Assembly: GCA_002699185.1 (NCBI GenBank)
Contig: PABG01000121.1
Span: 1 to 58,377, forward strand
DNA: 58,377 nucleotides
Direction: 5' to 3'
From: Gammaproteobacteria bacterium
GTDB lineage: Bacteria > Pseudomonadota > Gammaproteobacteria > Thiohalobacterales > Thiohalobacteraceae
Part shown: positions 7,593 to 35,740 of the stretch, piece after piece
Numbering within the stretch: position 1 is the first letter of the stretch
How the letters are laid out: each line of letters starts with the position of its first letter
Made by a program: the position numbers and the translations under genes
The notes under the pieces: generated by a model
Seen by the model: only the letters and a program-made list of their open reading frames with translations
What the model was told of the DNA's origin: nothing
The model's database searches: none

Positions 7593-9107
7593 ATGTTGTC
7601 AGAACTGCCATTACTGAGCCTGTTGATCTGGGTCCCCATCCTGGGCGGCATTGCTGTGCTCGCGGCCGGCGACCGTGAGCCCTGGGGCGCGCGGACCCTG
7701 GCGCTGGCGACATCGCTGCTGACCTTCCTGCTCAGCATCCCCCTGTTCACCGGTTTCGAGACCGGTACGGCGGCGATGCAGTTCGAGGAGCTCAGACCCT
7801 GGATACCGGCCTTCAATGTCAATTATCACCTCGGCGTGGACGGGATCTCGGTCCCCTTGATCATCCTCACCACCTTCACCACCGTGCTGGTGGTACTGGC
7901 CGGCTGGGAGGTCATCCAGAAGCGCGTGGCCCAGTACATGGCCGCCTTCCTGATCATGGAAGGCCTGATGATCGGGGTGTTTGCCGCGCTTGATGCGGTG
8001 CTGTTCTATGTGTTCTGGGAAGGCATGCTGATTCCGATGTTCCTCATCATCGGTATCTGGGGCGGGCCGCGCCGTGTCTATGCCACCATCAAGTTCTTTC
8101 TCTATACCTTCTTCGGCTCGGTGTTCATGCTGGTCGCACTGATCTACATGTACATCCGGTCGGGCAGTTTCGGCATCCTGGACTTCCACCTGCTGCCGCT
8201 GGGCATGACCGAGCAGATCCTGATCTTCATCGCCTTCCTGCTGGCCTTCGCGGTCAAGGTTCCGATGTGGCCGGTACATACCTGGCTGCCGGATGCGCAT
8301 GTCGAGGCGCCCACCGGCGGATCGGTGATCCTGGCAGCCATCATGCTCAAGATCGGTGGCTACGGTTTCCTGCGCTTCAGTCTGCCGATCACGCCCGATG
8401 CCAGCCAGGAACTGGACTGGCTCATCATCGGTCTGTCGCTGATCGCCGTGGTCTATATCGGCTTCGTCGCCATCGTCCAGCAGGACATGAAGAAGCTTAT
8501 CGCCTACTCATCCATCGCCCACATGGGCTTCGCCACCCTGGGCTTCTTCCTGATCTTTGCCATTCTCGAGAACACCGGCACGGTACAGGGCGCGTTGCTG
8601 GGTCTGGAAGGCGGGATGGTGCAGATGATATCGCACGGCTTCATCTCCGGGGCGCTGTTCCTGTGCGTGGGCGTACTCTATGACCGCATGCACTCGCGCG
8701 AGATCGCCGACTACGGCGGGGTGGTGAACACCATGCCGGTATTCGGCGGTTTCATGGTGCTGTTCGCCATGGCCAATTCCGGTCTGCCCGGGACCTCCGG
8801 TTTCATCGGTGAGTTCATGGTGATCCTGGCGAGCTTCAAGGCCAACTTCTGGTACGCCTTCCTCGCGGCCACCACCCTGATGCTGGGCGCGGCCTACAGT
8901 CTGTGGCTGGTCAAGCGGGTGGTGTTCGGCGAGGTGGCCAACAAGCGGGTCGCCGAGCTGCAGGACGTGAACCGGCGGGAATTTCTCATCCTTGGCGTAC
9001 TCGCCGCTGCCGTGCTGCTGCTCGGTCTGTGGCCGGCGCCGCTGGTGGATCTCATGCATGCCACGCTGGAGAACCTGCTGGCCCATGTGATGGTGTCCAA
9101 ATTATGA
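7593..9107 (+). CDS. nuoM: NADH-quinone oxidoreductase subunit M
   Basis: A 504-residue antiporter-like (MrpD-type) proton channel subunit of complex I. The essential glutamate is in LFYVFWEGMLIPMFLIIGIWG. The lysine/histidine core is in FAVKVPMWPVHTWLPDAHVE, with KKLIAYSSIAHMGFATLG further on. About 14 hydrophobic segments cover the protein. A Shine-Dalgarno-like AAGGAAA lies before the ATG. An inverted repeat, not a promoter, separates it from nuoN. Confidence 0.97.
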   Translation: MLSELPLLSLLIWVPILGGIAVLAAGDREPWGARTLALATSLLTFLLSIPLFTGFETGTAAMQFEELRPWIPAFNVNYHLGVDGISVPLIILTTFTTVLVVLAGWEVIQKRVAQYMAAFLIMEGLMIGVFAALDAVLFYVFWEGMLIPMFLIIGIWGGPRRVYATIKFFLYTFFGSVFMLVALIYMYIRSGSFGILDFHLLPLGMTEQILIFIAFLLAFAVKVPMWPVHTWLPDAHVEAPTGGSVILAAIMLKIGGYGFLRFSLPITPDASQELDWLIIGLSLIAVVYIGFVAIVQQDMKKLIAYSSIAHMGFATLGFFLIFAILENTGTVQGALLGLEGGMVQMISHGFISGALFLCVGVLYDRMHSREIADYGGVVNTMPVFGGFMVLFAMANSGLPGTSGFIGEFMVILASFKANFWYAFLAATTLMLGAAYSLWLVKRVVFGEVANKRVAELQDVNRREFLILGVLAAAVLLLGLWPAPLVDLMHATLENLLAHVMVSKL

Positions 9108-26006: not shown

Positions 26007-26031
26007 TGCCAGCTGCCGGGAGAGTTCAACG

Positions 26032-26125
26032 CAGCGGGCTGGATGGGTGAAGGCGCTTGCGCCGTACCCCATCTCCAGGCCGGGTGACGCCGGCTTGCGC
26101 TGCGCTTCATCCATCCAGCCTGCTG
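26032..26125. repeat. Long inverted repeat downstream of tamB (family C)
   Basis: The left arm CAGCGGGCTGGATGGGTGAA (26032-26051) pairs imperfectly with the right arm TTCATCCATCCAGCCTGCTG (26106-26125). Smaller hairpins lie inside (AAGGCGCTTGCGCC). It occupies the gap between the convergent tamB and chalcone-isomerase-like genes. A related arm (GGATGGGTGAAG) occurs at 40066-40077. Confidence 0.8.
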
Positions 26126-26129
26126 AATA

Positions 26130-26684
26130 TCACCCGTCGCCGCCGAGGATACCGCCGGCCCCCAACCAGATACCCAGATACAGCCGGGCCAGTTCCGGAT
26201 CGGGCTGAAACAGCACCCGCCGGCCGTTGTGATCGAGCGTCAGGCCGCTGTCCGGGAGCCGGCACAGGCGGTAGCTGTCGCCGACGCGGATATCGACATA
26301 GGCCGCGTGCAGCCGCGCCAGGCCGTCACTGAACGCCTGCAGACGCGGCGCCGGATGCTGCCGTTGCAGGATCCGGTGTGCCGCCTCGATCAGGATTTCC
26401 CGCGCCAGGTCGCGATGATAGCGGGCCTCGATGCAGGTGCTGGCATCGGTGGCCAGCAGCTGCGGCAGCGGTTGTGGCGCGGGGGCGTAGACACCGAGGC
26501 TGTAGACCCGGAACAGTCCGCCATAACGAATGGTATCCTGCCGGATCAGGGACAGGCGTTCGTCCCCGACCTCCACCGCCGCCGGCAGCGCCACCTCGGC
26601 CCGGACCGGCGCCGCCAGCGCCAGCAGCAGACCGATCAGCCAGCCTCGAACAGATCGTGCGCGCAGTATGGCGACATGCATCAT
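26130..26684 (-). CDS. Chalcone isomerase-like family protein
   Basis: A 184-residue exported protein: signal peptide (VRGWLIGLLLALAAPVRA), then a chalcone-isomerase-like fold region with RQDTIRYGGLFRVYSLGVYA and IEARYHRDLAREILIEAAH. Bacterial members are not flavonoid enzymes; fatty-acid binding is suspected from structural relatives, but the function is unproven. The start ATG at 26684 overlaps the stop of the DUF3833 gene (ATGATG context); an upstream in-frame start would run far into that gene. It is last in the minus-strand lipid operon. Confidence 0.8.
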   Translation of the reverse strand: MMHVAILRARSVRGWLIGLLLALAAPVRAEVALPAAVEVGDERLSLIRQDTIRYGGLFRVYSLGVYAPAPQPLPQLLATDASTCIEARYHRDLAREILIEAAHRILQRQHPAPRLQAFSDGLARLHAAYVDIRVGDSYRLCRLPDSGLTLDHNGRRVLFQPDPELARLYLGIWLGAGGILGGDG

Positions 26685-27235
26685 GGCGCAGCCGTCCCGG
26701 CATCGGTCTTGATGAACACCAGCGTGACCTCGCCCAGCCGGATGCCCCATTTGCTCATGGTGGCGCGGTTGATCATCACCCGCTCGTCCTGCAGGAACAT
26801 CCAGTCATCGAAGTGCACGACATAGTGTTTGCCGCCCACTTCCAGGCGCAGCCGGTATTCCCAGTTCAGGGCATTGCCGTATTGCGCTCCGCGGGCCACT
26901 CCGACCACATCGTCGGCCCGACCCTCGTAATGGTGTGCGTCCAGCTTGCGGATGCGCCAGATGCGCTGCTGGCGTTCGCCGTCGGCATAGACGAAGTCCT
27001 CCTGCAGCACCAGCTCGTCGCCTTCCATCCGGCCCTGGATATCGACGTGGAACCGACGTTTAACCTCGCCGCGACGGTTCTGGAACATCCCCCAGGCCTG
27101 CAGCCCGCCCTGGAAGTACTCCTCCAGCACCAGCGCTGGTTGCTGACCCTGGTAGTCCTGCGCCTGCATGTGACTACACCCGGCGCTCAGCCACAGGCCG
27201 CAGGCGATCAGTATCAGCAGGGACAATCTCATCAT
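26681..27235 (-). CDS. DUF3833 family lipoprotein
   Basis: A 184-residue lipoprotein: the N-terminus MMRLSLLILIACGLWLSAGC has a clear lipobox ending at Cys20. The rest is beta-rich with LEEYFQGGLQAWGMFQNRRG, typical of DUF3833, and IWRIRKLDAHHYEGRADDVVG. Function is unknown. The family is repeatedly found with cyclopropane-fatty-acid-synthase-like, DUF1365 and chalcone-isomerase-like genes, as here. Its 5' end overlaps the MFS gene by 62 bp, and the signal sequence is needed, so the overlap is probably real. Confidence 0.82.
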   Translation of the reverse strand: MMRLSLLILIACGLWLSAGCSHMQAQDYQGQQPALVLEEYFQGGLQAWGMFQNRRGEVKRRFHVDIQGRMEGDELVLQEDFVYADGERQQRIWRIRKLDAHHYEGRADDVVGVARGAQYGNALNWEYRLRLEVGGKHYVVHFDDWMFLQDERVMINRATMSKWGIRLGEVTLVFIKTDAGTAAP

Positions 27236-28550
27236 CGCTTCTCTCCGGGGAACGGGCGCTGTCGCGCAGGGTGAGCAACTCGGATTCGGTCAACGGCAGC
27301 CGCCAGACCAGCCAGGTGGCGTGGAGCTTGATGGTCACCGGCAGCAGGGCATAGAGCAGGGTGAGCCACAGCTGCTGCATCGAAGTGGCCGTCCGACCCG
27401 ACTCCAATCCGGTAGCCGACAGCAGGGGGAAGGCGATGCCCACGGCCACCGCCAGTGCCAGCTTGGTGAGCAGGCTCCACAGCCCGAACAGGGTGCCGGT
27501 GCGGTGCTGGCCGGAGACCAGTCGCTGCTGCTCGGCGACATCGGCCTGGATCGAGGCCGGCAGCGCCATGTCGATGCCCAGACTGGCGCCGGTGAGCAGG
27601 CAGATAACGGTGAAGCCGGCGACGTCCCCCGGCCCCAGGCCGAGCACGCCGACAAAGGCGGCGCTGGCCAGCAGCATGGACAGCGCCCAGGTGCGGGCCT
27701 TGCCCAGGCGCCGCGCCAATGCCTGCCACAGAGGCAGGGCGAGCAGACCGCTGAAGAAGTAGGCGCCGAGAAACAGCGGCAGTGAGGTCCCCGCCTGCAA
27801 CACCGTTTCCACGTACAGAATGATCAGCGAGGCGGGGATGGCGTTGGCCATGCTGTTGCTGAAGAAGGCCAGCGACAGCCGTCGCAGCAGGGGGTCCTCG
27901 AGCAGCGCCCGCAGATAACCGGGGGCCGTCGCCCGCCGCTGTGCCGGGGCGGGGGTGGCGAGCAGGGTGATCAGCACCGCCGTCGGCAGCAGGAGGTAGA
28001 GCAGCCAGGCCGCATCCCGCATCAGCAGCGCCAGTTCGTCCGTATGCCCCGTCAGCAGCGGCAGGGCGATCATCAGTATCGTGCCGAGGATGGTGAAGGC
28101 CTCGCGCGCGACGGTCACGCTGGTGCGGGCATGATAGGCCTCGGTCAACTCAGCGCCCCAGGCCAGGTAGGGCACGCTGATCAGGGTCCAGCCGGTGTAA
28201 CTGACCAGGCTCCACAGGAACAGGTAGACGCCGCCGGCATCCGCCGGCGGCACGAACAGGCGGCTGATGCCGAACAGCAGCAGCAGGGCGCCGACCAGCA
28301 TCAGCGGCCGGCGCAGGCGGTTGCCCCAGCGGTTGCGGTCATACCAGTAGCCGACCAGTGGATCGGTGAACACATCCAGTGAACGCGCCAGCAGGATGGC
28401 AATGCCGGCCACCGCCAGCCCCACCTCCGGCAGGCCGGCATAGAAGGCCGGCAGGAACACGTACAGCGGCAGGCCGAGCGCGGCCAGCGGCAGGGCGGTC
28501 ACGCCGTAGGCCAGCAGGCTGCGCCTCCAGTGCGCGATGCTCACGGACAC
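27174..28550 (-). CDS. MFS transporter (glycoside-pentoside-hexuronide/MFS_2-like)
   Basis: A 458-residue permease with about 12 hydrophobic segments. The early loop SLDVFTDPLVGYWYDRNRWG is the MFS_2/GPH-type A-like motif (D-x3-DP-x-G-x2-SDR variant). The substrate is unknown; sugar specificity should not be assumed because the neighbours act on membrane lipids. It starts 10 bp inside the end of the methyltransferase gene and overlaps the DUF3833 gene by 62 bp at its 3' end, so the three are probably co-translated. Confidence 0.85.
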   Translation of the reverse strand: MSVSIAHWRRSLLAYGVTALPLAALGLPLYVFLPAFYAGLPEVGLAVAGIAILLARSLDVFTDPLVGYWYDRNRWGNRLRRPLMLVGALLLLFGISRLFVPPADAGGVYLFLWSLVSYTGWTLISVPYLAWGAELTEAYHARTSVTVAREAFTILGTILMIALPLLTGHTDELALLMRDAAWLLYLLLPTAVLITLLATPAPAQRRATAPGYLRALLEDPLLRRLSLAFFSNSMANAIPASLIILYVETVLQAGTSLPLFLGAYFFSGLLALPLWQALARRLGKARTWALSMLLASAAFVGVLGLGPGDVAGFTVICLLTGASLGIDMALPASIQADVAEQQRLVSGQHRTGTLFGLWSLLTKLALAVAVGIAFPLLSATGLESGRTATSMQQLWLTLLYALLPVTIKLHATWLVWRLPLTESELLTLRDSARSPERSDDEIVPADTDRLRPVAERRV

Positions 28551-29767
28551 GGCGGCCGGATCAGGGTGGTCTGCATCAGGTCGATGCGGCCGCTCTCGAA
28601 GCCCGCCTCACAGTAAGCGAGATAATAGTGCCACAGGCGGATGAAGCGGGTGTCGAAGCCCTGTTCGCGCACCGCGTTGCGGTTGAGCATGAAGCGGTGC
28701 TCCCAGTGGCGCAGGGTGCGGGCATAGTCGGCGCCGTGGAACTCGCAACGGCTGATCTGCAAGCCGGCCCGGGCGGCGTGGGCGGCGAACACCGGGACCG
28801 AGGGCAGCATGCCGCCGGGGAAGATGTACTTCTGAATGAAGTCGGCCCGACGGGTATAACGCTCGAAGGCGGTCTGATCGATGGTGATGACCTGCAGGGC
28901 CGCGCGCCCGCCGGGGCGCAGACAGTTGAACACCGAAGCGAAGAAATCCGGCCAGTAGTCAGTGCCCACGGCCTCGAACATCTCGATCGAGACGACATGG
29001 TCGAAACGGCCGCGCAGGTCGCGGTAGTCCTGCAGCCGCAGTTCGACGCGTCCGGACAGGCCGGCGGCCTCGATGCGCGCGCGGGCATACTCATACTGGG
29101 CGTGGGACAGGGTGATCCCGGTGACCCGGTGACCGTGGCGGGCGGCGTATTCGGCAAAGCCGCCCCAGCCGCAGCCGATTTCCAGGATATGATCACCCGG
29201 GGCGGCATGCAGCGACGCCAGCAATTCGGCGTACTTGCGCGTCTGCGCCGCCTCCAGTGCCTCGTCGGGGCGGTCGAAGCGGGCGCCGGAGTAGGTCATG
29301 CCCGGGTCGAGCCAGAGCCGGTAGAAATCATTGCCCAGGTCGTAGTGGCGGCGGATGTTGCGGCGGCTGCCGCGCCGGGTGTTGGCGCGCAGGCGATGCT
29401 GCAGCCGGTCCAGACCCGCCAGCAGCTGCCGCCCCGGGAAGGCCGCGCGCATGTGGCGTTCATTCAGCGCCAGGACCTGCAGGGTCTCCGCCAGCCGGGT
29501 GCTGGACCAGTCGCCCCGCAGATACCCCTGCGCCAGGCCCATGCCGGCATTGGCGATCAGGCGCAGGCTGAAGCGGGCGGGATGCTGCAGCCGCAGCACG
29601 CCGGCCGGTCCGTCCCGGTCGCCGATGAAATCGAAGTGGCGGCCGTCGGCCAGTTCCAGACGCAGGGAACCGATACGGATGGCGCGCAGCAGGGGCAGCA
29701 GCAGTCGCAGTGCGCCGGGAATCTGTTGCGGCCGCGGCTCGAAGCGCAGCACCTTTTCTGTGTTCAT
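28541..29767 (-). CDS. Cyclopropane-fatty-acyl-phospholipid synthase family methyltransferase
   Basis: A 408-residue SAM-dependent methyltransferase acting on unsaturated phospholipid acyl chains. Landmarks are RRNIRRHYDLGNDFYRLWLD, GMTYSGARF, motif I LEIGCGWGGFAEYAA, SIEMFEAVG and FIQKYIFPGGMLPS. The family covers Cfa (cyclopropane formation) and relatives that methylate the double bond, such as the one used for furan fatty acids in alphaproteobacteria. The operon context favours the second group, but residues cannot decide it. The ATG at 29767 overlaps the DUF1365 stop; 20 upstream in-frame codons belong to that gene. Confidence 0.9.
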   Translation of the reverse strand: MNTEKVLRFEPRPQQIPGALRLLLPLLRAIRIGSLRLELADGRHFDFIGDRDGPAGVLRLQHPARFSLRLIANAGMGLAQGYLRGDWSSTRLAETLQVLALNERHMRAAFPGRQLLAGLDRLQHRLRANTRRGSRRNIRRHYDLGNDFYRLWLDPGMTYSGARFDRPDEALEAAQTRKYAELLASLHAAPGDHILEIGCGWGGFAEYAARHGHRVTGITLSHAQYEYARARIEAAGLSGRVELRLQDYRDLRGRFDHVVSIEMFEAVGTDYWPDFFASVFNCLRPGGRAALQVITIDQTAFERYTRRADFIQKYIFPGGMLPSVPVFAAHAARAGLQISRCEFHGADYARTLRHWEHRFMLNRNAVREQGFDTRFIRLWHYYLAYCEAGFESGRIDLMQTTLIRPPCP

Positions 29768-30534
29768 GAACTGAACTCCTTGCGGGGCGGTGAGGGTTTG
29801 CGATGGAAGGGCACCTGCCTGAACCACAGCTTCAGGGCCTGCCAGTGGATCATGGCCATGACCTTGAAGGTCATCAGCGGTATGCGCAGGGCGAGTGCCA
29901 GCCAGGTGCGGTCATTCAGCGGGCGGCGCTGTCCGGTCTGCACCGCGGCCAGCAGCAGCCGGTCCTGCTGGTATTCCCGGATGACGTACTGCAGGCGCGC
30001 ATCCGGTCGCGACAGCCGGAAATGGTAGCGGGCGTTCATGTCGATGAAGGGCGAGACGTGAAACTGCTTGTCATGCTCGCCCGTGACCGGCCACGACAAC
30101 GCCGCGCCCTGCGCATGCAGGACATAGGTATGGGACTCGTCGAAGGTGTTGTGGACCTCGCACAGCACGGCGACGGGCCGGCCCTCGGCGGTTTCCACGT
30201 ACCACAGGCTGAGCGGGTTGAAGACATAGCCCAGTACACGGGGAAAGCACAGCAGATGGATGCGGGTCCCCGCGTCCGGCAGGCCGGCATCGCGCAGCAG
30301 CCGCTCGGCCCAGGCGCGCAGGCTGCTGCCGTCGCGGAGGCCATGGTCGCGATCGTGGAAGTCGAACAGGTTGAAGCGATTGTGCGAGAACAGCCGGCAG
30401 TGCGCGACGGCCTCGTCGATGCGGTCGATGTCCACGAACAGATTGAAGACCCGATAGCGGAAACGATAGGCCACCGGGAAACGTCGCCGGTGCATGACCT
30501 CGCCCGCATAGATGCAGCCGGCCGCGTCCGTCAT
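29764..30534 (-). CDS. DUF1365 family protein
   Basis: A 256-residue protein with the DUF1365 N-terminus YAGEVMHRRRFPVAYRFRYR and the motif CFPRVLGYVFNPLSLWYVET, followed by HNTFDESHTYVL and FHVSPFIDMNARYHF. Function is unknown; the family is almost always adjacent to a flavin amine-oxidase-like protein and a cyclopropane-synthase-like methyltransferase, as here. It begins 1 bp after the flavoprotein stop and overlaps the methyltransferase start. No membrane anchor or signal is evident except a hydrophobic C-terminal stretch. Confidence 0.87.
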   Translation of the reverse strand: MTDAAGCIYAGEVMHRRRFPVAYRFRYRVFNLFVDIDRIDEAVAHCRLFSHNRFNLFDFHDRDHGLRDGSSLRAWAERLLRDAGLPDAGTRIHLLCFPRVLGYVFNPLSLWYVETAEGRPVAVLCEVHNTFDESHTYVLHAQGAALSWPVTGEHDKQFHVSPFIDMNARYHFRLSRPDARLQYVIREYQQDRLLLAAVQTGQRRPLNDRTWLALALRIPLMTFKVMAMIHWQALKLWFRQVPFHRKPSPPRKEFSS

Positions 30535-30535
30535 G

Positions 30536-31531
30536 TCAGGCCGCGCCCCGCCGCTCGCCCCGGGTGACCCAGGGCGGCTGCACCCCCAGCCGTTCGGCGA
30601 CCGTCACGGCCGAGCGCAGGGCGTCCTCATGGAAGCCGTAGCCGGAATAGGAACCGCACAGCCACAGGCCGTCGCGGCCCTGCAGCGATTGCAGCCGTGG
30701 CTGCTGGCGCAGGGCCTCGCTGTCATAGACCGGATGATGGTAGACCATGCGGGCATGCACGGTCTCGGGGGCCGGTTCCTGCAGCGGATTCAGGGTGACG
30801 AAATACGGCTGCGGGCTGTCGAGTCGCTGCAGCCGGTTCATCCAGTAGGTCACACACACCGCGCGGCCTCCGGAGGTGTCCTGCTCGGAGCGGTAGTTCC
30901 AGGCCGACCAGACCCGGCGCAGCCGCGGCATCAGGCCGCTGTCGCTGTGCAGTACCGCCCGGTTCTGCTGGTAGCGGAAGGCGGCCAGCGGCTCGCGGTC
31001 AGTGCGCAATTCCGGTGCCAGCATGGCCCAGGCCTCGTCGGCGTGACAGGCCAGTACCACATGATCGTAGCCGGCAAGCTCGCCGTCGGTGGTGTGCAGG
31101 GACCACCGCCCGTCTGCGCAGCGCCGCACCTGCTCCACCCGGCAGTCGCGCCGGGCACGCTGGTTCAGATCGCGCAGCATGGCCTTGACGTAGAGATAGC
31201 TGCCCCCGCGCACGCTGCGCCACTGCGGCCGGTTGCGCAGGCTGAGCAGGCCGTGATTGGCGAAGAAGCGACTGAAGCTGTGCATCGGGTAGGCCAGCAT
31301 GGCCTCCACGGGACAGGACCAGATCGCCGCCGCCATGGGCAGCAGGTAATGATCGCGCAGTTCACGGCTGTAACCGTGACGATCCAGGAAGCCGCCCAGG
31401 GTCAGTGACGAGGGCTGCTGCAGCTGCCGCGTGGCCCGGCGATTGAAGTCGAGGATCTCGCGCAGCATGCGCAGGTGGCGGGGGTCGGTCAGACTGCCCG
31501 GGCGGGCGAACAGGGTCTGCAGGCTGCTGCC
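30536..31531 (-). pseudogene. FAD-dependent amine-oxidase-like oxidoreductase, N-terminus missing
   Basis: The C-terminal ~331 residues of a flavoprotein of the FAD/NAD(P)-binding amine-oxidase family. Conserved parts present are AGSSLQTLFARPGSLTDP, RMLREILDFNR, the substrate-domain motif YLLPMAAAIWSCPVE, the VVLACHADEAW segment and the C-terminal FAD motif LWLCGSYSGYGFHEDALRSA. The N-terminal ~100 residues, including the GxGxxG dinucleotide-binding motif, are absent: homology ends at the palindrome at 31526-31537, where SDR sequence begins on the other strand. An internal ATG at 31468 could start a shorter product, but it would not bind FAD normally. Confidence 0.85.
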
Positions 31532-31537
31532 GGCAGC
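31526..31537. other. 12-bp perfect palindrome at a chimeric junction
   Basis: GCTGCCGGCAGC reads the same on both strands. Flavoprotein homology on the minus strand and SDR homology on the plus strand both run up to this site and stop. It marks an inversion, a deletion or an assembly chimera. Confidence 0.85.
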
Positions 31538-32202
31538 TGGTGATCTCGGCCCGGCGGCGCGACCGCCTGGAGGCGGTGCGTGACAAGCTGTCGCAGCGGG
31601 GCGGGGACATACGGGTAGTGCCGGTGGATGTGGTCGATGCCGACGCTGTCGCTGCAGCCGCGCTGGCCGTCGAGGAGCAGGCCGGCGTGCCCGATCTGGT
31701 CATCTACAATGTCGGCGACTACGAGCCCGCCGGCATGGATCAGCTCGACCCGGCCGTGTTCGAACGCATCACCCGGATCAACTATCTCGGCGCGGTCAAC
31801 TGCCTGGCCGCCGTGGTCCCCCGTATGCGCGCCAGCGGCGGTGGCCGTATCCTGATCAATGCCAGTCTGTCCGGCTACGCGGGGCTGCCGCATGCCGCGG
31901 CCTACGGCCCGACCAAGGCGGCCCTGATCAATCTGGCCGAATCGCTGCACCCGGAACTGACACGCGTGGGTATTCATCTCGGCGTCATCAATCACGGTTT
32001 TGTCAGAACGCGCCTGACTGAAAAGAACGAATTCACCATGCCGCAGCTGCTGGAGCCGGCCGCCGCTGCGGCGGCCATTCTTGAACATCTCGACGATCCG
32101 GGCTTCGAGATCCGGTTCCCGCGGCGTCTGGCCTGGATGCTGTGCCTGCTGCGGATGCTGCCGTATCGGCTGTTCTTCGCGCTGACGCGCAGGCTGGTGT
32201 AG
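31534..32202 (+). pseudogene. Short-chain dehydrogenase/reductase, N-terminus missing
   Basis: About 222 residues of an SDR. Present are QLVISARRRDRLEAV (end of the second beta-strand), VVPVDVVDAD, the NVGDYEP equivalent of the NNAG motif, the Ser in ILINASLSGYAGLP and the catalytic YGPTKAALI (Tyr-x3-Lys). The first ~25-30 residues, with the TGxxxGIG cofactor motif, are missing because the frame meets the junction palindrome. A GTG at 31540 could start a truncated product, but without the glycine motif NAD(P) binding is unlikely. An NTF2-like gene follows 2 bp after the stop. Confidence 0.85.
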
Positions 32203-32204
32203 GC

Positions 32205-32648
32205 ATGGCACAGGACATCGAACACCTGACCGCTGCCCTGGCTCAGTTCTATGCGGAGCTTGCGCCCGCTGACCTGGAGCGTGTGGACGAGTTCTATGCC
32301 CCGGACGCCCACTTCCGCGATCCCTTCAACGACGTGCATGGCACGCCGGCGATCCGGGCGATCTACCGGCACATGTTCACACAGCTGCACGATCCCCGTT
32401 TCGAGATCCTGCACTGGGCCTGCAGGGACGACTGGGCCTGTATGCTGTGGCGGTTCCGTTTTTCCGCCCGCCGCCTGGCCGGTGGACGGCCGCTCGAGGT
32501 CGAGGGCATGTCCCGCGTCCGCTTCGACGCCGCCGGACGCGTGGCGGCCCATCACGATTACTGGGATGCGACTGCCATCTACCGACACATCCCCGTGCTG
32601 CGCGGCATGCTGGCCCTGCTGCAGCGCCGGTTAAGCGCAACCGGATGA
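32205..32648 (+). CDS. NTF2-like (SnoaL-type) protein
   Basis: A 147-residue protein with an NTF2-like alpha+beta fold layout: an N-terminal helix (LTAALAQFYAELAPADLERV), DEFYAPDAHFRDPFNDVHG, then paired strands with ACMLWRFRF and GMSRVRFDAAGRVAAHHDYWD. The acidic/His pair in the last motif is typical of SnoaL/NTF2-like proteins that bind small hydrophobic ligands. The function is unknown. It is coupled to the SDR (2-bp gap). SDR/NTF2 pairs commonly accompany the flavoprotein/DUF1365/methyltransferase cluster in other gammaproteobacteria, supporting one pathway. Confidence 0.82.
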   Translation: MAQDIEHLTAALAQFYAELAPADLERVDEFYAPDAHFRDPFNDVHGTPAIRAIYRHMFTQLHDPRFEILHWACRDDWACMLWRFRFSARRLAGGRPLEVEGMSRVRFDAAGRVAAHHDYWDATAIYRHIPVLRGMLALLQRRLSATG

Positions 32649-32658
32649 GGAGATCACA

Positions 32659-32958
32659 GTGCTGGAACGAATGTCACTGCTGCGCAATGATCCCGAGGCT
32701 GCCCGTCGCCTGTTCGAGCGGGCGAGGAGGGGGGATGTGGATGCCCAGTATGCCCTGGGCCTGAGCTATGCCGAGGGTCGGGGCGTGGCCATCGATGATG
32801 CCAGGGCCTATTTCTGGCTCAGCCAGGCGTGCGCTCAGGGTGATGGGGAGGCGCGCATTCTGCGCAATATCGTGGCCCGCGACATGTCTGAGGATGCCTT
32901 CCAACAGGCCCGGCGCATGTGCGACACACCCGATTACATGCAGCATATCGAACTCTGA
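32659..32958 (+). CDS. Sel1-like repeat protein, small
   Basis: A 99-residue soluble protein with one and a half Sel1-type repeats: ARRGDVDAQYALGLSYAEGR, followed by GVAIDDARAYFWLSQACAQG (Sel1 helix pair signature). Such repeats mediate protein-protein contacts. It begins at GTG 32659, 10 bp after the NTF2-like gene, with AGGAG in front. An ATG four codons in is an alternative. No signal peptide is seen. Its role is unknown. Confidence 0.78.
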   Translation: MLERMSLLRNDPEAARRLFERARRGDVDAQYALGLSYAEGRGVAIDDARAYFWLSQACAQGDGEARILRNIVARDMSEDAFQQARRMCDTPDYMQHIEL

Positions 32959-33014
32959 GCCGGTTTCCGGTGCGACTCCGTGCCTCTGCGCGCGCTGCAT
33001 TCATATCGCGACGT

Positions 33015-34979
33015 TCAGAACACCACATTCAGCATGGTCAGCGACACCACCAGGAACAGTACCGTCATGATGCCGCCGGCCCGCATGAAGTCCGGCACCC
33101 GGTAGCCGCCCGGCCCCATGATCAGGGCATTGACCTGGTGGGTGGGGATGAGGAAGGAGTTGGAGGTGGCGATGGCCACGGTCAGTGCATAGATGGCCGG
33201 ATCGGCGCCGACCTGGACGGCGATGTTGACCGCCAGCGGCACCAGCAGCACGGTGGCGCCGACGTTGGACATCACCAGGGTGAAGAAGGTCGCCAGCACG
33301 GCGATGGCGGCCTGAATGATCCAGGGCGCGGCCTCGCCGACCCGGGCCACGACCTCCTCGGCGATGTAGCGGGCGGTGCCGCTGGTCTCCACCGCCAGTC
33401 CCAGCGGGATCAGCGAGGCGAGCAGGAACACCGTCTTCCAACTCACCGCGCGGTAGGCCTCGTCGATGGACAGTACGCCGGAGAGCACCATGCCCATGGC
33501 CCCTGTCAACAGCGCCACCGACAGACGCAGGTCGGTGAACAGGACCAGTCCCAGCGTGATGACAAAGAACAGCAGGGCGTGCGGCACCTTGTGCGGGCGT
33601 TCCTCCTCGTGCGGGTACTCGGTGGTGACGATGACGAAGTTGCGGTCCCGCTCCAGTCGCGCCAGGTCCGCCCAGGTGGTGTGCACCACCAGGGTGTCGC
33701 CGGATTCGAATGGGATGTCGCGCACGCCTTCGCCCTCGCGGCTCAGGGTCTTGCCGCCGCGGTGGAGGGCCAGCAGTGACAGGCCGTAGGTCTTGCGCAG
33801 CCACAACTCCCGGGCGGACTGGCCGATCATCTTGGAGCCGGGCGGAATGACGATCTCGGCGATGCCCGCCTTGGTCGGCACCAGCACCTCGCTGAAGCGG
33901 TCCAGGTCCGTCCGTACCCGCAGCTGATGCTCGCCGGCGAAGCTGTCCAGCGCTTCGCGCGTGCCGAGCAGGGCCAGCCGGGTGCCGGGCTCGATGCCCA
34001 GGCTGCGGTCCACGCCGGCGGCGCCGACGCGGATGCCGTCACCCTTGTCGAGGGCGATCACCCGTACCCGGTAGTCGTGTTCCATCTGGTCCAGGTCGTG
34101 TCCCACCAGCGGGCAGTTGGCGGGCACCTCGGCCTCCACGATGTCGTAGCCCACCCCGTAGACTTCCTGGAAGTAGCGCTTGGTGTCCTCGCCGCGGCTG
34201 CGACCTTCCTCGCCGGCAGCGCTGTCCGAGGGCAGCACGAAGCGGCCGGCCAGGATGAAATAGAGCACGCCGGTGGTGACCAGGGCGATGCCGATGGGGG
34301 TGATGGCGAACAGTCCGAAGGTCTCCATCTGCTGGTCGGGCGGCAGGCCCTTGTTGGAAGTGAGCAGCAGGTCGTTGAGCAGGATCACCGGACTGGAGCC
34401 GACCATGGTCATGGTGCCGCCGAGGATGGCGCAGAAGCCCATGGGCATGAGCAGGCGCGACATGGGCAGGCCGGTGCGGGCCGAGATGCGCGAGACCACC
34501 GGCAGGAACAGGGCGGCGGCGCCCACGTTCTGCATGAAGCTGGAAATGACCCCGACCGTGCCCGAGATCAACGGGATCACGCGCGCCTCGGTGGAACCGC
34601 CGATGCGCAGAATGAAGCCGGCGACCTGGGTCATGATGCCGGTGCGGTCCAGGCCGGCGCCGATGATCATGACCGCAATGATGGAGATCACCGCGTTGCT
34701 GGCAAAGCCGGTGAACAGGTTGTTGGGATCCACCAGGCCCCGCTCCAGCCCCATCAGGGGTGCGAACAGCGCGCTCAGCCCCAGCAGTACCATCACGGTG
34801 ACGGCGGCGACATCGACCTCGACCACCTCGAAGGCGAACAGGAAAATGGTGAACAGCAGAAAGGCGCTGACCCAGGCGATCTCCACCGTGGGCACCACAC
34901 CGGCGATATAGACACCCGCCGCCAGGAACAGGACAGCGGCGATGATCTGTTTCTTGTTCAGACTGAGGCTTTCACTCAC
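33015..34979 (-). CDS. SLC13-family permease with TrkA-C (RCK_C) domains
   Basis: A 654-residue membrane protein: about 11-12 hydrophobic segments split by a cytoplasmic insert (residues about 240-450) carrying two RCK_C/TrkA-C domains (around YRVRVIALDKGDGIRVG and LSLLALHRGGKTLSREG). Halves carry the repeated SLC13 loop patterns SFMQNVGAAALFLPVV and LVMSNVGATVLLVPLAV. Members move anions such as sulfate or dicarboxylates with Na+ or H+; in sulfur bacteria some are sulfate permeases. The start is uncertain: GTG 34979 has an AAGGT ribosome site, GTG 34985 is next, and the frame is open to 35129. Confidence 0.85.
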   Translation of the reverse strand: MSESLSLNKKQIIAAVLFLAAGVYIAGVVPTVEIAWVSAFLLFTIFLFAFEVVEVDVAAVTVMVLLGLSALFAPLMGLERGLVDPNNLFTGFASNAVISIIAVMIIGAGLDRTGIMTQVAGFILRIGGSTEARVIPLISGTVGVISSFMQNVGAAALFLPVVSRISARTGLPMSRLLMPMGFCAILGGTMTMVGSSPVILLNDLLLTSNKGLPPDQQMETFGLFAITPIGIALVTTGVLYFILAGRFVLPSDSAAGEEGRSRGEDTKRYFQEVYGVGYDIVEAEVPANCPLVGHDLDQMEHDYRVRVIALDKGDGIRVGAAGVDRSLGIEPGTRLALLGTREALDSFAGEHQLRVRTDLDRFSEVLVPTKAGIAEIVIPPGSKMIGQSARELWLRKTYGLSLLALHRGGKTLSREGEGVRDIPFESGDTLVVHTTWADLARLERDRNFVIVTTEYPHEEERPHKVPHALLFFVITLGLVLFTDLRLSVALLTGAMGMVLSGVLSIDEAYRAVSWKTVFLLASLIPLGLAVETSGTARYIAEEVVARVGEAAPWIIQAAIAVLATFFTLVMSNVGATVLLVPLAVNIAVQVGADPAIYALTVAIATSNSFLIPTHQVNALIMGPGGYRVPDFMRAGGIMTVLFLVVSLTMLNVVF

Positions 34980-35095
34980 GTTCACACCTTGTGACTGGTC
35001 TGGTTTGGTGCCGGCGGCCGGGGTGGGCCGTGGGCAAAGGTGCGTAATTCTACCAGCCGGAACGTGGAATGACAGGCATGACGCCCGCCCGGGGA

Positions 35096-35740
35096 TCAGC
35101 GCCGGGGCCGGTGCAGGGCCAGAAAGCACTGCACCGTGTGCCGCACCACCCGGTCGATCTCGGCCTGCGGAATCGCTTCCTCAAGGACCAGGGCGCGGGT
35201 GCGCAGCGAGCCGAGCAGGGCGCCGGTGAACTGCCGGGCAGCCAGGTCCGGATCCTCGATATCGAGCATCCCGCGCTCGCACAGGCTCTGCAGATACTCG
35301 GCCAGCCGCCGGTTGCCACGCTCGGGGCCGGATTCGTAATAGAGCCGGCCGACCCGCGGCAGGCTCCGGCTCTCGGCCACGATCAGCCGGTGCAGGGCCA
35401 GCGCCGAGGGTTCCAGCAGGATGTTGAGCAGGAGGGTGGCGAATCGGGTCAGGATGCGCTCGATGCCGTCCTCGTCGGGCGAGGAGGACAGCAGCGTGTC
35501 CAGCAGTTCGCTGCAGCGCTGGGTGATGATGGCCCGGAACAGGGCCTCCTTGTTGCCGAACTGGTTGTAGATGGTCTGCTTCGACACCCCCGCCGTGCGG
35601 GCGATCCGCTCCATGCTGGCCTGGTCGTAGCCCTGTTCCAGGAATATGGCGGTGGCGGCCTGGATGATGGCCTGCTGCTTTTCGGTGACGGCCGGTGGAG
35701 AGCACTGGGGGACAGGGGTGCGGGACATCGGGAGATACAA
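35096..35740 (-). CDS. TetR/AcrR family transcriptional regulator
   Basis: A 214-residue repressor. The N-terminal helix-turn-helix spans residues about 18-65, with IIQAATAIFLEQGYDQASME and RIARTAGVSKQTIYNQFGNK. The C-terminal ligand-binding domain resembles AefR/AcrR-like members. It is divergent from the RND efflux genes with a palindromic operator in the shared 132-bp gap, so it very probably represses the pump and is relieved by a pump substrate. The alternative start is Met5. Confidence 0.9.
   Translation of the reverse strand: MYLPMSRTPVPQCSPPAVTEKQQAIIQAATAIFLEQGYDQASMERIARTAGVSKQTIYNQFGNKEALFRAIITQRCSELLDTLLSSSPDEDGIERILTRFATLLLNILLEPSALALHRLIVAESRSLPRVGRLYYESGPERGNRRLAEYLQSLCERGMLDIEDPDLAARQFTGALLGSLRTRALVLEEAIPQAEIDRVVRHTVQCFLALHRPRR

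Follow-up and report, generated by a model that had tools for sequence, protein, structure and literature searches.

Two divergent genes of a UfaDOM-like lipid cluster are truncated at a deletion junction relative to a sister genome

The homologs of UfaD, UfaO and UfaM in R. palustris are encoded in the order RPA2571, 2570, 2569 (PMC7380195). For Pseudomonas, it has been reported that class II LitR proteins control ufaM, that genes for an SDR and an FAD oxidoreductase lie in the same region, and that TGTACA half-sites go with the LitR proteins (PMC9758184). CarH is characterized by the motifs Wx9EH and D/ExHx2G, and its operators consist of tandem 11-bp repeats of the form nnnnTnnACAn (PMC9304148).

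The window analyzed here is a stretch of 58,377 nucleotides, contig C121 of the genome that we call G000. Genes for a flavoprotein, a DUF1365 protein and a methyltransferase of the cyclopropane-fatty-acid-synthase (CFA) type are adjacent in it, and a UfaD/UfaO/UfaM-like role in fatty-acid modification is predicted for them, with membership assigned by gene content only. The features of the locus are as follows.

26007..33016, no strand: accessory cluster, whole (7 kb), absent from the congener G001
26130..26750, minus: chalcone-isomerase-like protein, intact
26681..27235, minus: DUF3833 protein, intact
27174..28550, minus: MFS_2 transporter, intact
28541..29827, minus: CFA-synthase-family methyltransferase (UfaM-like), intact
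29764..30534, minus: DUF1365 protein (UfaO-like), intact, now without an upstream promoter
30536..31534, minus: UfaD-like FAD flavoprotein of the amine oxidase family, C-terminal remnant without residues 1-98, which include the FAD-binding GxGxxG
31526..31537, no strand: 12-bp palindrome GCTGCCGGCAGC, which spans the junction; the left homology ends at 31534 and the right homology starts at 31535/31536
31534..31535, no strand: deletion junction, which lacks 1546 bp found in the sister genome G002 (C1:1834629-1836174)
31535..32202, plus: SDR oxidoreductase, C-terminal remnant without residues 1-31, which include GASSGIG (TGxxxGIG)
32205..32648, plus: SnoaL-like (NTF2-fold) protein, intact, downstream of the SDR gene
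32659..32958, plus: Sel1-repeat protein, final gene in the cluster

The congener G001 has an empty site in place of the cluster, with only 46 bp between tamB and the transporter-like gene that lies at 33015-35129 (minus strand) in the window (L160, G001:C1:177001-196000). Within the genus the cluster is thus accessory and dispensable, and it has been either gained or lost.

The first-pass annotation had proposed that the flavoprotein and SDR genes lose their N-termini at a single point, and the alignments bear this out, since both borders fall inside GCTGCCGGCAGC. Read on the minus strand from the palindrome, the flavoprotein remnant is AAGSSLQTLFARPGS..., and its homology runs up to base 31534 (AGSSLQTLFAR...). 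Read on the plus strand, the SDR remnant is ...CCRQLVISARR..., with homology from 31535/31536 (QLVISARR, where the sister species has RLVISARR). Compared with the intact genes of G002, residues 1-98 of 430 are lost from the flavoprotein and residues 1-31 of 252 from the SDR. The Pfam profiles agree: Amino_oxidase is matched only from profile position 121 by the window protein and from position 1 by that of G002, and adh_short only from position 27 and from position 3, respectively. As the same annotation had noted, the nucleotide-binding motifs GxGxxG and TGxxxGIG are thus gone. Both truncations are real features of the sequence as given. Because the dinucleotide-binding motifs are absent, family knowledge indicates that both enzymes should be inactive if the deletion is real.

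A survey of related loci, a few of which are the same genome fetched twice, found the flavoprotein N-terminus in 93 of 94 loci; in the remaining one a contig end interrupts the gene. This part of the earlier description held, whereas the statement that the two genes are often co-directional did not: among the 57 loci with a detectable SDR, only 3 had that arrangement, 7 were head to head and 47 had the SDR gene distal and in opposite orientation. Head-to-head pairs occur in L054, L057, L058, L060, L061 and L066, and genes for SDR and SnoaL proteins are commonly found near UfaDOM-like clusters. In the survey loci L054-L133, MerR-type regulators, often with a B12 domain, recur inside or adjoining the gammaproteobacterial clusters. 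In many alphaproteobacterial clusters their place is taken by a sigma factor and ChrR, and lineages seem to have exchanged the type of regulator.

Close orthologs were found in G002, a single-contig genome of the same genus, when 56 genomes were searched. The flavoprotein ortholog is 88% identical (C1:1833633-1834628, minus strand) and the SDR ortholog 91% identical (C1:1836165-1836839, plus strand); both genes are complete there (430 aa with GAGVAGL and 252 aa with GASSGIG) and stand head to head. We read structural differences from the gaps of nucleotide alignments; the longest open reading frames in GC-rich DNA are often antisense shadows. The window and G002 are colinear across all 58 kb, and the aligned blocks differ by no more than about 170 bp with a single exception, about 1.5 kb extra in G002. 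The blocks that flank this excess meet at window 31513-31534, as window 26119-31534 corresponds to G002 1829213-1834628 and window 31513-32966 to G002 1836152-1837607. At the base level, window 31534 is G002 1834628 and window 31535/31536 is G002 1836175/6, so that 1546 bp (G002 1834629-1836174) are absent from the window. Given colinear flanks and additional G002 DNA between the borders, the junction is a deletion relative to the sister genome, and the absence of the 1546-bp interval relative to G002 is near certain. It is the only gene-breaking structural difference in the approximately 146 kb compared.

Neither the missing DNA nor the missing regulator protein was found in the rest of the G000 assembly, which is 79% complete, and the same search readily found the adjacent G002 DNA (90% identity) in G000.

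Two further features of these genomes were observed. G000 has 328 bp of intergenic sequence (C83:27385-27714) where G002 has about 32 kb (C1:1161693-1193857), likely a genomic island. A repeat about 80-165 bp long (L165:10890-11065, G000:C136) is dispersed in dozens of copies in G002, with matches on both strands.

The content of the missing interval can be read in G002 (L050:6630-8175). Between flavoprotein codons 1-98 at one end and SDR codons 1-31 at the other lie an AT-rich control region, a regulator gene and another control region. The regulator is as follows.

L050:7096-8001, minus: MerR/B12-binding regulator of the CarH/LitR type, complete, 301 aa, present in G002 only and missing in the window

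This protein matches the Pfam families MerR_1 (PF13411), B12-binding_2 (PF02607) and B12-binding (PF02310), the last with 25.7 bits, under the 32.1-bit cut-off. It aligns with T. thermophilus CarH (3whp/5c8d) over most of its length with E ~1e-32 and contains Wx9EH (WKQSDTGIAQEH) as well as ExHxxG (EHHELG). Its score of 147.2 bits lies below the 400-bit cut-off of the NCBIfam CarH equivalog. Two repeat pairs spaced 11 bp are located in the control regions (L050 6966/6977 and 8024/8035), although some copies do not fit TnnACA, and the pair at 8024/8035 overlaps two divergent sigma-70-like promoter sites. An operator role is predicted for these regions. Both also share the exact 16-mer GTACAAGTATTGTACA, which stands inverted on either side of the CarH-like gene (L050:6900-8080). 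No further exact copy was found in G002 and none in G000, where near-matches were no more frequent than those of a reversed-pattern control. The gene with its flanking 16-mers looks like a self-contained regulator-operator module.

We lean towards a genuine, very recent and possibly strain-level illegitimate deletion as the origin of the junction. The locus would have been head to head from the outset, as in G002, whose arrangement we infer to be the ancestral state. A single 1546-bp deletion at little or no microhomology would then have cut short both divergent genes and taken out the intervening regulator gene together with both promoters, silencing a dispensable fatty-acid-modification cluster. 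A search around the junction gave no promoter-like site, whereas the G002 interval has two, so the downstream genes would be left without their promoters if the deletion is real, and the pathway is presumably dead. The contig sequence is continuous across the junction, without N. When two other G000 contigs were aligned with G002 over about 88 kb, the large differences were intergenic and no second gene-to-gene blunt join was found; the assembly is therefore not littered with such joins. On balance, the deletion appears to be present in the organism and not merely in the assembly.

The remnants also bear on the age of the loss. The dN/dS values are 0.171 for the flavoprotein remnant and 0.162 for the SDR remnant, alongside 0.171 for the CFA gene and 0.23 for DUF1365, both intact neighbors. 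Over the columns of the two remnants that are conserved in relatives (94 + 57, that is 151), there are no window-specific departures, and the G002-specific ones amount to 0 + 1. The remnants lack relaxation, and a deletion of any age should leave departures, so the loss is unlikely to date back further than a small part of the lineage's history. The deletion is therefore very recent or strain-specific, unless the assembly collapsed here.

Such a collapse, already named as an alternative in the first-pass annotation, is still live, and we regard it as quite plausible if short of probable. The organism would then be intact like G002, and the assembler would have skipped about 1.5 kb, joining ends or merging strains at a GCTGCCGGC-like sequence. 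Neither the remnants nor the genes downstream of them show decay, as would be expected if both genes were intact in the cell; the assembly is fragmented (139 contigs), and the junction lies within a short GC-rich palindrome. Against this, the G002 interval has no long repeat at its ends, the missing piece is on no other contig of the bin, and the 88-kb comparison yielded no second case. The overlap common to both ends is also limited. Among 92 relatives, 88 have Tyr at flavoprotein residue 98, so an intact left end would probably go on with GTA..., which holds the overlap to about 9 bp. An overlap of that length is short for assembler joining. Our search of the literature on microhomology misassembly in metagenome assemblies found nothing directly usable. 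Two dead enzymes should not be declared for the species on the junction alone.

We consider it rather unlikely that the deletion is real and still under way in the population, which would make the window a snapshot of the loss of a photoprotective pathway, with intact and deleted strains coexisting.

An inversion that broke each gene once, as first suggested, would explain why the two head-to-head truncations coincide, and is very improbable. The sister locus is already head to head with colinear flanks on both sides and unchanged orientation, and about 1.5 kb of DNA is missing, whereas an inversion moves DNA; the missing N-termini joined head to head, which such an event should have left, were not found in the 79%-complete assembly. 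A reversible phase switch, for which only the palindrome speaks, can practically be dismissed: the genome has 5 more copies of this palindrome, no segment is enclosed by inverted repeats, no alternative segment or second copy is present, and a regulator and two gene starts, once lost, cannot be regained without another copy.

The palindrome was also rejected as the cause of the preferred deletion. The window holds 25 perfect 12-bp palindromes, and a random join of two places in the window gives one across the junction in 0.6% of cases. This figure is worth noting, but the comparison is post hoc. The palindrome probably arose as a by-product when ...GCTGCCGGC was joined to (A/G)GCTGG.... Microhomology at the breakpoints is strictly 2 bp (GC) common to the G002 ends; it could possibly reach 9 bp (GCTGCCGGC) if the window's own lineage differed from G002 there.

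If the deletion is true, a single step has only just deprived an accessory membrane-lipid cluster of a regulator of the B12/light type and of both promoters. The case matters little beyond annotation, and it keeps an inversion or a switch from being claimed in error. The intact sister locus appears to be a CarH-like-regulated, UfaDOM-like cluster with divergent putative operators, which makes it a candidate for light control.

Compared with known systems, the window shares the order flavoprotein, DUF1365 and CFA-type methyltransferase with the UfaD-UfaO-UfaM furan fatty-acid genes (PMC7380195) and differs in that its UfaD-like gene is truncated. With paired pseudogenes made by illegitimate (short-homology) deletion it has in common the colinear flanks, the sister-only DNA, the blunt join and two truncated genes; it differs from them in that the remnants have no accumulated decay and the deletion is putative in the organism. 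The G002 regulator resembles CarH and class I LitR in its MerR HTH with WERRY, both B12-binding domains and the Wx9EH and ExHxxG motifs, and the G002 locus may do so in its TGTACA-type repeats, which are spaced 11 bp and overlap a divergent promoter. Unlike CarH, this putative light/B12 regulator scores under the equivalog cut-off (147 vs 400 bits), and its gene is located in a lipid cluster, not a carotenoid cluster.
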